This document shows, in pieces, positions 3,059-9,129 of a DNA stretch of 64,000 bases (positions within the stretch are counted from its first letter, which is position 1; every line of letters begins with the position of its first letter). Origin of the DNA: Leucobacter tenebrionis (GTDB lineage: Bacteria > Actinomycetota > Actinomycetes > Actinomycetales > Microbacteriaceae); assembly GCF_019884725.1 (NCBI RefSeq), contig NZ_CP082322.1, positions 2,046,001-2,110,000 on the forward strand. The letters are read 5' to 3'. Under the pieces are notes generated by a model. The model saw only the letters and a list, made by a program, of their open reading frames with translations. It was not told where the DNA came from and made no database searches. The position numbers were made by a program, and so were the translations under genes.

Positions 3059-4141
3059 TCATTCTCTCCAGTTCGGGGTGGGCTGGCGCTCAACTGCTGT
3101 CGCCCGGCGGCGACGCGGCCTCGGTTGCGGCGAGATCGCGTTCGTAGGTCGCTTCAATGGTGGGCCGCTGCTGTCTCTGCAGCGCCGCGCCCTGGTTCTC
3201 TGCCCAGCAGCTTCGGTGATGGTGTTCTTGATCCCGATGATGATGCGCTGGATGTTCGTCGCGACGACTGCGAGGGCGGTGACGAGGTAGGTGTAGGCAT
3301 AGCCGCGTCCAGGGCGGCTCTTCTTATCACCCAGGTTCGTAGCCCAGGCGTCTTTCAGGGTCTTGTTGCTGGTCTCGACCTGGTTGCGCTGCCCGTAGGC
3401 GCGGTACCAGTCCTCGGACTTCCAAGGGTAGCGCTGCAGGTGCCGGATGACATCGGAGTCGAGGCCGACCTGGATCGTGCCGGTGGGGCTTGTCCTTCGT
3501 CGGCTTCCCCGTCACGGGATCAAACGCCAAGTAGCCAGTGGGGTCGGGGTAAGAGAAGCGCTGGTAGCCGTCGGCGTCGACGCGGCTGTGGCGCTTCATA
3601 AGGTTCTTCTCGCGGGCGCGCATGATCTTGTCACGGTCTTCGAGCGTGTAGGGGACACCGGTGTCAGGGTTGGTCTTCTTTCTGCGACCCAGCGGCTGAT
3701 CTCTCGATAGTTCCTCGGCATGCGGTCCACGTAGAGTGCTCCGTCGACGACGATCACGGGATGTCCGGGGACCTTGCCTTGCTGTCCGAGTTGGTTCGCG
3801 CGGTAGTCGTAGACGGTCTCGAACTGGGTGCGACGTACGGGTTCTTGGAAGTATTGCGGTTGCAGGTTATTGAACGCACGATCGACGACGACCAGGCCCC
3901 GCTGCTCGGTGAACGCGACATGCTGCTCGATGGTCGAGCGAGGGCCGTGCTTGATCTTGCCGGGATGGTGGAGATTGATGCCCGTGATGAGCGGGAACTC
4001 GAATGACCCGTTCCGGGTATCAATGAGCACGGTGGTGTCGAGTTCGTAGGCGGCTTTCGACCTGGCGACTTTGGTGCCGTCGTGGTCGTCGTGCCGGGTG
4101 TACCAGCCGCACCGGTAGTCGCCGTTGAGTCGGTCTCGTGA
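3059..4141 (-). pseudogene. DDE-type transposase remnant, 5'-truncated and frameshifted
   Basis: Three consecutive minus-strand reading segments join into one transposase-like protein. It reads KVARSKAAYELDTT..RNGSFEFPLITG, then GRRKKTNPDTGVPYTLEDRD..RFSYPDPTGYLAFDPVTGKP, then TIQVGLDSDVIRHLQRYPWK..WYRAYGQRNQVETSNKTLKD, ending at TGA 3059-3061. The YGQRNQVE stretch resembles the catalytic-glutamate region of IS4-like DDE transposases. Frame changes lie near 3690 and near 3480; the second restores the original frame. Homology stops at about 4141 with a stop codon just upstream, so the N-terminal catalytic aspartate region is gone. No terminal inverted repeats are evident. The IS family is not certain. 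Confidence 0.65.
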
Positions 4142-4245: not shown

Positions 4246-5160
4246 ATGAACCAGTCACTCGCCGAGACCGCCGCGCTCTTCGCGCTGCTGCGCTCGAAGC
4301 GGCGTGGCGAAACGTACGCCTCGATAGCTGCGGAGGCAGCATTCGAAGGTAGTGCGCAGCGTGTGTACGACAGTCGCTTCGACGGTGCTCTTATCCCTCC
4401 GCCAGAAGCTACGGCGTACCTCGACGAGGCGCGCGTACTCGTCGAGGGATGGGCTCAGGATGGCCTGAACGTCGTCACCGTGCTCGATGAGACCTACCCG
4501 GCACGGCTGCGTGACATTCGCGAAATGCCGCCGTTCCTCTTCTATGCGGGTGCGCTCCTCCCTCAGGACGATGGCATATCGGTCGTCGGCTCCCGCAACG
4601 CCTCCGAGCGCTCCCGTGAACTCGCGGGTGAGATCGCGCGCTTCCTCGTGAGTGAGCAACTCACCGTCATCAGCGGCCTGGCAGAGGGCATCGACACCGC
4701 TGCGCACCGAGCAGCCCTCGACGCTGGCGGTAGGACAGTGGCATTCATCGGGACGGGAATCACGAAGTTCTATCCGGCCCGCAACGCTGATCTGCAGCGT
4801 GAAATCGCTGAGTACGGCCTCGTGCTGTCGCAGTTCTACCCCGAGGCTCCGCCCACGAAGCAGAGCTTCCCGATCCGTAATGCTGCGATGTCCGGGTATG
4901 GCCTCGCTACGATCATCGTCGAAGCGTCGAATCATTCTGGCACCAGGATTCAGGCCCGAGTCGCAGGGCAGCACGGGCGCCCCGTAATCCTGACTTCCAA
5001 AGTGGTCGATGACACTGAGTGGGGGAAGGCTCTAGTGGGCACCCCGAACGTGCAGGTCGTGTCGAATCTCGGGGAGCTGAAAGACGCGGTGCGCGCCGTC
5101 CGCCGCGCCCCGTCGGACCTTGATCGCGCCCTCCAAGCGCTCCTGAGCAGTGCCGCGTAA
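4246..5160 (+). CDS. DprA/Smf-like Rossmann-fold protein (divergent, island-encoded)
   Basis: A 304-residue protein with the DprA Rossmann core: ISVVGSRNASERS, VISGLAEGIDTAAHRAAL, GGRTVAFIGTGITKFYPARN, FPIRNAAMSGYGLATIIVEA and SGTRIQARVAGQHGRPVIL. True DprA loads RecA on ssDNA during transformation; related Smf/LOG folds handle nucleotides. It departs from housekeeping DprA: RNAAMSGYG replaces the usual RNRIIAGLS, there is an N-terminal helical region of about 90 residues, and no C-terminal winged helix is obvious. The start at 4246 is chosen because upstream codons precede the promoter. It overlaps the next gene by 11 nt, implying translational coupling. A role in defence or DNA uptake is inference. 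Confidence 0.8.
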   Translation: MNQSLAETAALFALLRSKRRGETYASIAAEAAFEGSAQRVYDSRFDGALIPPPEATAYLDEARVLVEGWAQDGLNVVTVLDETYPARLRDIREMPPFLFYAGALLPQDDGISVVGSRNASERSRELAGEIARFLVSEQLTVISGLAEGIDTAAHRAALDAGGRTVAFIGTGITKFYPARNADLQREIAEYGLVLSQFYPEAPPTKQSFPIRNAAMSGYGLATIIVEASNHSGTRIQARVAGQHGRPVILTSKVVDDTEWGKALVGTPNVQVVSNLGELKDAVRAVRRAPSDLDRALQALLSSAA

Positions 5161-5902
5161 CTTCAGTGACGAGATCGTCGCGGTCGGTCACCAGCTGGAG
5201 CTGATGGCAGGTTCGTACCTGCGGAATACGATCCGAGATGCGACGACCTGCACGGTCTGCTCGTGTCCCAGAGATCAGTCCGCTCATATTTGCGGGACGT
5301 GCAGTTCCCATGTCGCGCGAGGCCTGCCTTTGGCTGATCGTGTTGCTTCTTTGGTGTACGCACCGAAGGGAGGACAAGCGTATGAGTTCTTGCGGCAGTA
5401 CAAGTCTCCGTTTGTCGGCCCCACGCATATATCCACGATGCAGTCGCTGCTCGCGGTCGGGCTGCGAGCACACACACCCTGCGCGATTGCGCTCGCGCCA
5501 TCGTGTTCGCAAACCGACTGGGCGGTCGTTCCGTCGACACGGGGACGGTCGCAGTTCTCCGATATGGTCACGCGGCTGGCGAAGAACCCGCGCAGCCGCG
5601 TGCCGGTCGAATATGTAGGCAGTCCTGGGGTGCGAGCGCTGGATCCGAGCGCGTGGGCGGTCCCGGCCAGCGTGCCGCCGCACCGCCAGCTGCTCCTCAT
5701 TGACGATTCCTGGGTGAGTGGGGCCCACGCGCAGTCGGTCGCATCCGCCATGAAGATGGCAGGGTACGACGAGGTGTCTATTCTGACGGCGGGTCGCGTG
5801 CTCGAGCCGAGTTACGGTGCGAACAAGACTTTCATTGACGGCCTGGGCGCACCGTTCGACTGGCGATGCTGCCCGTGGACCGGAGGCGACTGCCCTGGCT
5901 GA
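5150..5902 (+). CDS. ComF-like phosphoribosyltransferase-fold protein
   Basis: 250 residues. The N-terminal half carries a probable zinc-binding pair, CTVCSCPRDQSAHICGTC at about residues 34-51, as in ComF. The C-terminal half has LLLIDDSWVSGAHAQSVASA, a degenerate PRPP-binding loop (canonical form D-D-x-x-T-T/S-G). The protein ends with more cysteines (RCCPWTGGDCPG). The GTG start overlaps the 3' end of the dprA-like gene, so the two are one operon. ComF acts with DprA in natural transformation elsewhere; finding a diverged pair on an island is unusual. Substrate and function are unknown. Confidence 0.75.
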   Translation: MPRNFSDEIVAVGHQLELMAGSYLRNTIRDATTCTVCSCPRDQSAHICGTCSSHVARGLPLADRVASLVYAPKGGQAYEFLRQYKSPFVGPTHISTMQSLLAVGLRAHTPCAIALAPSCSQTDWAVVPSTRGRSQFSDMVTRLAKNPRSRVPVEYVGSPGVRALDPSAWAVPASVPPHRQLLLIDDSWVSGAHAQSVASAMKMAGYDEVSILTAGRVLEPSYGANKTFIDGLGAPFDWRCCPWTGGDCPG

Positions 5903-6007: not shown

Positions 6008-6862
6008 GTGAGTCCTGCAAGCTCGAGTCTTCCGCGCGACGTGTGCGATGCATTGCACGCAACAGACGCATCCTTGCTTGGAGTTGGTAGTTTTGGGGAA
6101 ACCTGGCGCGTATCCGATCCGCTGTCATACTCAGGTGTCTTTGCGGTCAAGCTGTTGAAAGCCGAGCAGTTTGACCCGAGGTTATTGAAGCGGGAAACTG
6201 AGGGGCTCTCCGCTTCCTCGCATCAAGGAATCTTAAAGCTTCACGACACGGGGAGAGTTGATCTTGCTGGTGAACCTCGTCATGTACTGATTTGTGAGTT
6301 CATTGATGGGAAGTCAGTTTCTGCTGCAGCGAGTGAGGGCTTACCGACGACTGACGAGGTAAGAGGATTCGCGCTTAGCTTGCTCAGCGCTCTGGTAGAA
6401 CTGCACAGTGCGGACCGCATCCACCGTGATTTGAAGCCAGACAACATTATGCTTCGGAACGGTGATTGGGCGGAAGCCGTCATCATTGACTTCGGTCTTT
6501 CGCGGCCGGTTGATGGGGGCACAATGACCTTGTATCCGCAACGTGTCGGCAGTATTCCTTGGATGTCGCCGGAGCAATTGCGGGGCAGTAGAGCTAGAAA
6601 AGCCGCGGATGTTTGGGCGTGTGGGGTGATTCTCTACCAACTTCTCACTGGACGGCACCCCTTCTTTCACGGTTTGGATCTTCGCGAGATCTTGAATGAT
6701 GAGGACGAGATTCTCGATCTCGTTTCTGGTCCTTCTCCTTCCCTGCCATTTTCAGTGCCTGAAGACTTGGCGCGGACAGTGAGCCGAATGCTAACGGCTG
6801 AACCACTTGGCGCGAGAGGTAGTGCTCGTCGTGCTTACTTGGATCTAGAAGGGAAGAACTAG
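6008..6862 (+). CDS. Soluble Hanks-type Ser/Thr protein kinase
   Basis: 284 residues, essentially a bare kinase domain with no membrane helix, PASTA or sensor domain. Visible motifs are the glycine loop GVGSFGETW (about 25-33), lysine in FAVKLLKAE, catalytic loop IHRDLKPDN, DFG in IIDFGLSR, the activation segment MSPEQLRG, and DVWACGVILYQLLTGRHPFF. All catalytic residues are present, so it should be active. GTG start with GAGAGGGA upstream. The stop overlaps the next start by 1 nt (TAGTG). Codon use and lower G+C differ from the chromosomal genes, consistent with transfer. The likely substrate is its operon partner or a host protein (inference). Confidence 0.88.
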   Translation: MSPASSSLPRDVCDALHATDASLLGVGSFGETWRVSDPLSYSGVFAVKLLKAEQFDPRLLKRETEGLSASSHQGILKLHDTGRVDLAGEPRHVLICEFIDGKSVSAAASEGLPTTDEVRGFALSLLSALVELHSADRIHRDLKPDNIMLRNGDWAEAVIIDFGLSRPVDGGTMTLYPQRVGSIPWMSPEQLRGSRARKAADVWACGVILYQLLTGRHPFFHGLDLREILNDEDEILDLVSGPSPSLPFSVPEDLARTVSRMLTAEPLGARGSARRAYLDLEGKN

Positions 6863-8058
6863 TGGTGAACGGTTCTTGGGCAGGTGCAGATATCCAGCGC
6901 TCCTTGTCTGGTGATGTTCCGTTGTATTTGATTCACCGCAGCGTGCAGCAAAATCAGCGCGTACCTGAGGTCATGTCTGAGATCGCTAAGGCCAATGGAG
7001 ATCGTCTTGGGCTAGGGGTTATTGCACGCTTGCCAGCAATGACAAGGAAGACTGCGGAGTCGTTTGCTGTAGAGACCTCAAACATTCCAGTACGGATTCT
7101 TGATCCTGACCTATACTTGCATCGAGCGTGGGGCTGGCACGACGCGCCCGAAGCAAAGTCGCGTTGGCGGGACTGGAAGTACTTTGATTCGCGTCCTGAG
7201 CGTGTGAGCTCTTCTTGGGTAAAGACCGTACTAGATGAGCAGCGTGGCTTAAACGCTTCGGTACTTCTGAGTGCATCGGGGTGGGTGCCTGAAGCAAATG
7301 GTCAGCGCGCGTTGCAGGACACGTTGAATTGGGTCCGTGAAAGCCGGCAGCAGGCGGGAGACAGCCGTCTGTGGGTAAACCTTACTTTTGACTCCGCTTG
7401 GCTTTCGAATAGGACGCTTCGAAACTTTCTTATCGAAGAGATAGTGGAGAGTAACGAGCCCGACTGGTATCTGCGATTTTGGTGGCCTGAAGTCAGCCCT
7501 AGGTACGGGCAGCTGACCGACGAGAGTATCGTCCGAGGCTATCTGGAGCTTGCCTATGAATGCGACAATGAGGGCAAGCGGCTCTATCTTCCTAATTCAG
7601 GACTTACTGGATGGTTGCTCTCGGCCAAGGGTTCGGCCGGTTTTTCTACGGGAACTGCTTGGGGTGAACAAGCATTTGCACGCCAACGGAAGATGGGTCG
7701 CCAACCGGGATCACAGACCCCGCCGCGAATCCCACGCTTATTTGACCCCCGGGTTCTACACACGCTTCAGTACTTGGAATACGAAAGGCTTGACGAGCTG
7801 GCTCGTCATAGCGAGCCAGACTCCGTATACCTTCAAGAGGTTCGAGAATCGGGCCACACGCCAGAACTGGCGGGACTGCACTACTTAGCTGTCGTAGGTG
7901 ATCTCACTGCGAAGCTCAACGCCCGAAATCCTCAGAACGCCGCAGCGCGGCTCGTCCGGCAAGGGTTGGACTTTATGGGGAGCCTAAACACGGTTGACAC
8001 GCTGCAAGGACCTAACATGCCAGTGCATCTCGGGCTTTGGGATGAAGTGCTTCGCTAG
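6862..8058 (+). CDS. Uncharacterised 398-residue protein coupled to the kinase
   Basis: I do not recognise a family. No signal peptide or membrane helix. The N-terminal part alternates predicted strand and helix (DVPLYLIHRSV, LGLGVIARLPAM, IPVRILDPDLYLH, ASVLLSASGWV, RLWVNLTFDS, WYLRFWWPEV), which could be a TIM-barrel-like fold. A later stretch RLYLPNSGLTGWLLSAKGSA precedes a basic segment (FARQRKMGRQPG). It is tryptophan-rich. A GTG start overlaps the kinase stop by 1 nt (a second GTG follows directly), so the pair is almost certainly co-translated. The 3' end overlaps the convergent gene by 47 nt. Low G+C compared with the flanks. Confidence 0.7.
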   Translation: MVNGSWAGADIQRSLSGDVPLYLIHRSVQQNQRVPEVMSEIAKANGDRLGLGVIARLPAMTRKTAESFAVETSNIPVRILDPDLYLHRAWGWHDAPEAKSRWRDWKYFDSRPERVSSSWVKTVLDEQRGLNASVLLSASGWVPEANGQRALQDTLNWVRESRQQAGDSRLWVNLTFDSAWLSNRTLRNFLIEEIVESNEPDWYLRFWWPEVSPRYGQLTDESIVRGYLELAYECDNEGKRLYLPNSGLTGWLLSAKGSAGFSTGTAWGEQAFARQRKMGRQPGSQTPPRIPRLFDPRVLHTLQYLEYERLDELARHSEPDSVYLQEVRESGHTPELAGLHYLAVVGDLTAKLNARNPQNAAARLVRQGLDFMGSLNTVDTLQGPNMPVHLGLWDEVLR

Positions 8059-8821
8059 GAACTTGTGACCGTCCAAAAACTGGATAGATCTGACCTTCGC
8101 GAGTTCCCCGTTGCACCATGTCGAGGCATCGTTCTGCGAGGAGCTGTTTCCCGACTTGTGTGGCGGTTGCAGGCCGTCGGCGTGGGCGGGCAGCTACCTC
8201 AGTTCTGCCGCTTGTGCGGTCTACGAGGAGTACGCCAACTCCACCATTGCTGATTTGGGGCAAGTAGGAATTGAATGCGCCAAAAGCTGACCTCTCGAGG
8301 GCCATATAAGCTGCGTCAGCGGATCGCGATTGGGTACGAGCCTGGCTGAGCGCGGCACGCCAATCACGTAGTTTGGCTTCCACGGTTACGACGCGTTTGC
8401 CTACCCAGCGGGCTTCTGGCTTCCGCCGGACTTCGCCGCCTCCATAGTGAAGCCAACCTAGTTCTACAAGCATCGGAACGACGGCACGCCTCATGTAATT
8501 ACTTGAAGTGCCAACGAGTCTTGCAAGCTCGTCGACGCGGAGACTGCTGCGTCCGATTGCAAAAACCGCTCGAACCTCTAAGTCTGTCGTTAAAGGTCGT
8601 ACTCCGAACTCCCTACGAATAGTGATGGCTTCCGGTGCAAAACGCACCGCTGCCAGATCCGGTACGCCTTGTGCAGCGGGTACCTCGGTGAACACTTCAA
8701 CTGGAGTTTCACGTTCATGCCGAAAGGCTAGGCGCGGTAACGCGTTCCGGATTTGGGGCACCATGTCGGCTTCGAAACGGAACTTGAGGCTTGGGAGGCT
8801 CCGACTTTGAGTTCTTGCCAT
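8012..8821 (-). CDS. Winged-helix protein with PD-(D/E)xK-nuclease-like motifs
   Basis: 269 residues. Residues about 50-65 read VPAAQGVPDLAAVRF and residues about 143-165 read VVTVEAKLRDWRAALSQART. An aspartate followed by an ExK element and an RALxQA helix is the pattern of PD-(D/E)xK nucleases with an inserted domain. Between them lies a helix-turn-helix region (SSLRVDELARLVGTSSNYMR and WLHYGGGEVRRKP). ATG start preceded by AAGGG. Convergent with, and overlapping, the 398-residue gene. DNA binding or cleavage is inferred from motif pattern only; it could equally be a regulator. Confidence 0.6.
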   Translation of the reverse strand: MARTQSRSLPSLKFRFEADMVPQIRNALPRLAFRHERETPVEVFTEVPAAQGVPDLAAVRFAPEAITIRREFGVRPLTTDLEVRAVFAIGRSSLRVDELARLVGTSSNYMRRAVVPMLVELGWLHYGGGEVRRKPEARWVGKRVVTVEAKLRDWRAALSQARTQSRSADAAYMALERSAFGAFNSYLPQISNGGVGVLLVDRTSGRTEVAARPRRRPATATQVGKQLLAERCLDMVQRGTREGQIYPVFGRSQVPSEALHPKARDALAC

Positions 8822-9037: not shown

Positions 9038-9108
9038 CACGAATGGAAAATGGCCTCTGACCTGGGATTCGGTTCCCAAGGTCAGGGGTCATTTTCGTTG
9101 GAAGTGCT
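9038..9108. repeat. Right direct repeat of the island (att-like)
   Basis: Near-identical to 2916-2985, with the same terminator hairpin but no tRNA gene in front of it. The T-tract is interrupted (TCATTTTC). It lies about 20 nt beyond the 3' end of the minus-strand MBL-fold gene and marks the junction back to chromosomal sequence. Confidence 0.8.
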
Positions 9109-9129
9109 GGATGCGGGCGACGCCTCGCA

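Follow-up and report, generated by a model that had tools for sequence, protein, structure and literature searches.

A mobile, compact DprA-phosphoribosyltransferase gene pair of Leucobacter tenebrionis, most likely an anti-phage toxin-antitoxin module

What is the role of two genes related to the competence factors DprA and ComF that lie on a genomic island, outside a competence locus? The question arises from a 64,000-nucleotide (nt) stretch of Leucobacter tenebrionis DNA, positions 2046001-2110000 of a single-contig 3.38-Mb genome (the window), in which a DprA-like protein of 304 amino acids (aa) (P0001; 4246-5160, + strand) is followed by a 250-aa phosphoribosyltransferase (PRTase) with a GTG start (P0002; 5150-5902, + strand). 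The two open reading frames (ORFs) are co-directional, and their coordinates bear out the 11-nt overlap reported by a first-pass annotation of the window. Our analysis identified a real, mobile and compact DprA-PRTase module, which most likely is an anti-phage toxin-antitoxin.

The gene pair and its conserved residues

P0001 matched the Pfam family DNA_processg_A (2.1e-56) and the SLOG-family model LDcluster4 (1.3e-06), and its NCBIfam score of 155.7 bits is below the cut-off for true DprA (191.15). The residues of the DprA fold are retained. In canonical DprA the C-terminus is a winged helix; in the 31 canonical DprA compared (every second unpaired genome locus from L165 on, compared loci being numbered with an L, plus the genome's own) the tail beyond residue 256 measures 98-164 aa, whereas that of P0001 has 48 aa. 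By sequence reading and alignment, the RNxxxSG motif of P0001 is RNAAMSG (residues 211-217; 4876-4896, + strand). The loop had been called altered, which is right for the third residue (A, while 31/31 canonical DprA have R) and for M215 and Q236, which occupy the positions of I/V and T, but R211, N212, S216 and G217 are all kept. The C-terminal extension and the RNR motif of competence DprA are absent from P0001.

P0002 combines a compact zinc ribbon with a type I PRTase. Its label as ComF-like stood only at the level of structure: no significant match was found in Pfam, NCBIfam or PADLOC (best PADLOC hit DpdE, 0.042), while the predicted structure has the zinc ribbon and PRTase fold and matches Helicobacter pylori ComF and ShosT. 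The phosphoribosyl pyrophosphate (PRPP) loop (5690-5728, + strand; LLLIDDSWVSGAH) reads LLLIDDSWVSG. In the alignment of 74 paired PRTases D186 and G191 are invariant (74/74), and position 185 holds D in 69 sequences and E in the other five. The loop is complete, and the earlier description of it as degenerate was rejected on the conservation of these key residues. Four cysteines (C34, C37, C48 and C51; codons within 5249-5302, + strand) may form the zinc ribbon, by analogy with ComFC. They are conserved in 8/8 sequences of alignment A1, which excludes L019 (interrupted), L021 (fragment), L027 (start unclear) and L031 (near copy of L028), and in 18/18 of alignment A4; in the wider set of 74 PRTases C34, C37 and C51 were found in only 41-42.

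Recurrence of the pair and its separateness from competence genes

To follow the recurrence of the pair, a scan with the DprA subfamily alignment was evaluated for the best 80 loci in genome contigs and for 75 loci in viral contigs. Where DprA scored at least 240 bits, a PRTase lay directly downstream in 18 of 19 genome loci and was missing from one; below 240 bits, it was downstream in one locus, upstream in one and absent from 59 of the 61. The viral loci had a PRTase downstream in 42 cases, upstream in 4, on the other strand in 3 and none in 26. Nine of ten chosen phage and plasmid records carried it downstream, with one exception, and 25 whole-genome regions seeded on the PRTase comprised 18 with the pair (PRTase downstream) and 7 without DprA. 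The DprA subfamily and the PRTase recur as neighbours beyond chance. The nearest relative among the matches listed was Microbacterium sp. Gd 4-13 (DprA 73 percent), where the flanking ORFs differ. In 49 of 73 pairs, chosen for a gene spacing between -60 and 120 nt, the two genes overlap, and in 69 they lie within 35 nt of each other.

DprA and PRTase are inherited together. Their tree distances agree (Mantel r 0.805 for 66 of 74 pairs; 0/2000 permutations as high), and in the midpoint-rooted tree all 74 paired DprA group in one clade (support 0.845) that includes 0/31 canonical DprA. This set of 74 omits L151, L155, L263, L266, L270 and L273, where the PRTase frame begins over 120 nt away from the stop of dprA, L162, where the frame starts far upstream, and also L024-L026, L031, L080, L083, L094, L099 and L101. 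In L080, L083, L094, L099, L151, L152 and L157 an intact DprA stands with a PRTase that is interrupted, shortened or absent; both are shortened in L101. The reverse, a broken DprA beside an intact PRTase, was not found in the loci of bacteria, plasmids and named phages. This pattern weakly suggests that the PRTase is the toxin and DprA the antitoxin.

When viral sequences were scanned with the PRTase alignment, no relative could be confirmed. At L085:9338-10159 a broad-family PRTase without DprA adjoins a SIR2-like ORF, and L091 and L092 hold PRTases without DprA in a different setting. The Streptomyces loci L162:4388-5659, L164:4003-5676 and L190:3862-5676 contain, besides the downstream PRTase, a second and longer PRTase-matching ORF immediately upstream of DprA.

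The pair occurs on several kinds of mobile carrier. In Gordonia phage Bosnia it is gp41 and gp40, between the repressor region and the integrase; in Vasanti it is gp30 and gp29, with the integrase on one side and tail genes on the other; and it is also present on Mycobacterium, Rhodococcus and Pseudonocardia plasmids. Pseudomonas phage PfAC02a has annotated ShosT and ShosA in reversed order, adjoining Kiwa (PMC11878078; this and most papers below are cited from excerpts). The L086 copy has a ThsA-like SIR2 gene nearby, and SIR2-like ORFs are close to the L020 and L085 copies; the names SIR2 (L020, L085), comM, fhaA, IS21, TraA and PD-(D/E)xK rest on reading of the translations. The pair is mobile and probably defensive cargo.

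To determine whether a third gene accompanies the pair, we compared 120 of the 251 ORFs near it with 109 of the 368 near canonical DprA (120 drawn, 11 dropped for a residue limit), with 25 families shown for each. No third family recurs near the pair, the most frequent reaching 2/120 sampled ORFs in Pfam and 3/120 in PADLOC; therefore no separate effector was seen. PADLOC families numbered 135 near the pair and 8 near canonical DprA, but the former figure is inflated, because the count is of families rather than proteins and a handful of type I restriction proteins hit many models each. PADLOC DpdF (PDLC02865) matched 19/109 ORFs near canonical DprA; as this equals the count for DNA topoisomerase, these are probably false matches. 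The lack of a recurring third family also speaks against the first-pass idea that the PRTase makes a nucleotide signal sensed by a SLOG-fold DprA. This idea could draw on the LDcluster4 match of P0001 and on the activation of SIR2-SLOG ThsA effectors by cyclic ADP-ribose isomers, as excerpted from PMC11204291; nothing that we found backs it, and we regard it as very unlikely.

The location outside a competence locus was confirmed. The genome holds three DprA matches: P0001, a 438-aa DprA adjoining a comM-like ORF (L012), and a third (L013:4846-5502, at 2.64 Mb of the same genome) that is a fragment of 218 aa in the neighbourhood of ORFs resembling IS21 and TraA. A comF match lies elsewhere, at 1.24 Mb (54 bits, below the curated cut-off). 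The pair is thus neither the genome's sole dprA and comF homologues nor kept by all relatives: the DprA subfamily was detected in 1/54 same-genus genomes (1e-60), and the PRTase in 5/100 genomes searched, own genome counted, and in 0/53 other genomes of the genus. With the PRTase profile, 15/396 genomes of the order were positive; a phylum search giving 40/396 at 1e-8 was not used as a frequency, because the weak rows inspected (L096-L098) read as ordinary ComF. A competence locus was rejected on the other dprA and comF-like copies and the presence in 1/54. Homology to DprA and ComF would also fit paralogues of ordinary competence or housekeeping function that lie on an island by chance. The same findings already contradict this explanation, as does DNA topoisomerase, which was found in 19/109 ORFs near canonical DprA and in at most 1/120 near the pair, where it is not among the listed families, ordered by number; we give it hardly any credence.

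Comparison with ShosTA and a proposed mechanism

The first-pass annotation knew of no characterised system of exactly this pair; the DprA and PRTase of a P2-phage hotspot and ShosTA are, however, already known. According to excerpts of PMC9122126, the former guards Escherichia coli from T7 and lambda, and it was proposed that DprA detects phage DNA, whereupon the PRTase is activated. ShosTA consists of a PRTase toxin, ShosT, and a DprA-like antitoxin, ShosA (Pu et al., 2025, via the review PMC12593503). In the excerpted review, ShosT is described as PRTase plus pyrophosphatase acting on the purine pool, ShosA as binding DNA and T7 Gp0.7 as a trigger. Excerpts of two further papers count ShosTA among the systems activated by phage single-stranded DNA-binding protein (PMC10732053) and report it from actinobacterial prophages (PMC10023795).

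The window pair, whose genes overlap and recur elsewhere as neighbours, resembles ShosTA in the adjacent, co-directional placement of the two genes and in the fold of P0002, which is like that of solved ShosT (PDB entries 8zvb-8zvd with chains named ShosT, 9vzo for ShosA, and 9w2p and 9w2q). It differs in size, as P0002 has 250 aa and no HAD match while solved ShosT has 432 aa; the HAD-like half of the latter may be presumed from the relatives L025 and L026, where a HAD match was present in L026 and below cut-off in L025. The motif differs too, RNAAMSG in P0001 against RNRIQAA/RDRIQAA in L025 and L026, which belong to a separate clade. With the P2-phage hotspot system the pair shares both kinds of gene, the phage-borne occurrence and the presumed anti-phage role (PMC9122126, excerpts); the PRTase of the P2-like phage P24C9, not necessarily the copy tested there, is of the long kind (424 aa, long ShosT model, HAD match under cut-off). 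In RqlHI/PsyrTA, too, a DprA-like antitoxin counters a toxic PRTase domain (PMC4670107), but this domain is fused to a RecQ-type helicase, which P0002, with no Pfam match, lacks. Canonical DprA and ComFC share the folds, and ComFC, with a four-Cys zinc finger and a PRTase domain, contacts DprA (PMC9005727, excerpts); location, copy number, short DprA tail, changed motif and sporadic presence set the pair apart. We therefore regard it as a ShosTA-like compact variant and not as model-defined ShosTA, because a ShosT match and a HAD half are missing and the ShosA model discriminates weakly. Among the matches listed by a literature search of papers outside subscription, none dealt with a compact actinobacterial DprA-PRTase form.

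Several observations weigh against a ShosTA-like toxin-antitoxin. ShosT models gave no hit on P0002, though 65/74 paired PRTases hit PADLOC ShosT (PDLC03962; 0.001), and the fold comparison of P0002 is a tie between ShosT and ComF. Among solved structures P0001 matches an ordinary DprA best (3uqz, 2.5e-32) and ShosA less well (9vzo, 5.1e-21). P0001 reached 206 bits with PADLOC ShosA (PDLC03961), but five canonical DprA controls scored 172-229, so the match was rejected as proof. Both annotated long-type ShosA (L025, L026) lie outside the paired-DprA clade; L085 has a PRTase without DprA, L152 a clade DprA without PRTase, and 26/75 viral DprA loci no PRTase match. The set of loci with a broken partner is small, was in part seeded on DprA, and covers bacteria, plasmids and named phages; short DprA frames occur on some viral contigs.

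Some of these points would suit DNA-handling helpers of a mobile element, with DprA and a ComFC-like PRTase binding and protecting incoming single-stranded DNA (ssDNA) of a phage, plasmid or island and passing it to RecA, without toxicity. In two species ComFC has been found to bind ssDNA and to contact DprA (PMC9005727, excerpts); phages and plasmids carry the pair, P0001 keeps the DprA fold residues, and its top match among solved structures is an ordinary DprA. The missing C-terminal extension and changed signature of P0001 argue against such helpers, as do the position of the Bosnia and Vasanti copies outside annotated replication genes and a solved fold closest to the PRTase that is ShosT as much as ComF. 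We consider this role unlikely.

A horizontally acquired two-gene toxin-antitoxin or abortive-infection module that acts like ShosTA is, in our judgement, the probable identity of the pair. From the analogy with ShosTA and the DprA-PRTase system, we infer that the PRTase is the proposed toxin and effector, and DprA the proposed antitoxin and sensor. The compact PRTase, with its zinc ribbon and complete PRPP loop, would poison the cell; when free, it would consume PRPP and upset nucleotide pools or a nucleic-acid target, and the infected cell would stop growth. The DprA-like protein, encoded first and coupled through the overlapping stop and start, would restrain the PRTase by a contact of the DprA-ComFC type, and would release it, or be drawn away from it, upon phage replication, ssDNA-protein complexes or host takeover. 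The pyrophosphatase role of ShosT may not apply here without a HAD-like half, and which half of ShosT carries that activity is a guess. More tentatively, the compact clade could be a second, independent branch of DprA-PRTase immunity, in which an extension-less DprA (RN-[AV]-x-M, SG-x-x-x-Q-A) directly clamps a ComFC-type zinc-ribbon PRTase; the uptake contact would have turned into a toxin-antitoxin switch, with a poisoning chemistry other than that of the larger ShosT.

The island, its other genes and implications

An island was proposed for this locus, and the repeat and base composition agree with it. Behind tRNA-Leu(CAG) (2835-2918, + strand; ARAGORN), the insertion site, repeat comparison located a 71-bp direct repeat whose left copy (2923-2993), which contains a hairpin, and right copy (9046-9116; 94 percent identical) form the island borders. 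This 6.1-kb insertion encloses all five genes, namely the pair, a kinase, a 398-aa protein and a convergent gene. Between the two copies the GC content is about 0.54-0.64, as against 0.64-0.72 elsewhere within 1-16 kb. In 16/16 same-genus loci (16 of 54 genomes compared) the tRNA adjoins a fhaA-like gene, and within about 9 kb of it P0001, P0002, P0004, P0005 and the right-hand neighbour P0008 had no match, so the site is variable; matches of P0003 there were to other kinases only (27-29 percent). No integrase ORF was noticed inside the island on reading the ORF list, no dedicated search being made. Two overlapping ORFs (3327-4030, - strand; one is P0006) read as a transposase-like remnant without family match. 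Another species of the genus has a 67 percent homologue of P0006 (L140:7520-7870) at a distance of about 0.8 kb from this tRNA-Leu; the site may be used repeatedly.

The pair had been described as next to a kinase module, and the Ser/Thr kinase gene indeed starts 105 nt past the PRTase stop, but it belongs to separate cargo (6008-8821) outside the pair: the kinase P0003 (6008-6862, +), P0004 (6862-8058, +; 398 aa, without family match) and the convergent P0005 (8012-8821, -). The three occur in the same order without the pair in L306 (40, 38 and 33 percent) and L307 (37, 33 and 31 percent), and a search of 206 other loci at 1e-4 gave no match to P0004 or P0005. On these grounds a single system joining pair and kinase was rejected, and, despite the enclosure of all five genes in one insertion, a five-gene defence system seems to us extremely improbable. 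The trio is a second passenger and a candidate defence module. P0004 was present in 3/396 genomes of the order, own genome counted. P0005 carries a PD...VEAK pattern and might be a PD-(D/E)xK nuclease.

The PADLOC ShosT model misses nine of the 74 paired PRTases, the copies in the window and in Microbacterium sp. Gd 4-13 included, and PADLOC ShosA (PDLC03961) cannot separate PRTase partners from housekeeping DprA; Q196, M215, Q236, the short tail and an adjacent PRTase do separate them. With a compact PRTase that has no HAD-like half, it becomes possible to ask which ShosT half poisons the cell, and further, whether the DprA-ComFC contact of competence has been reused for immunity.
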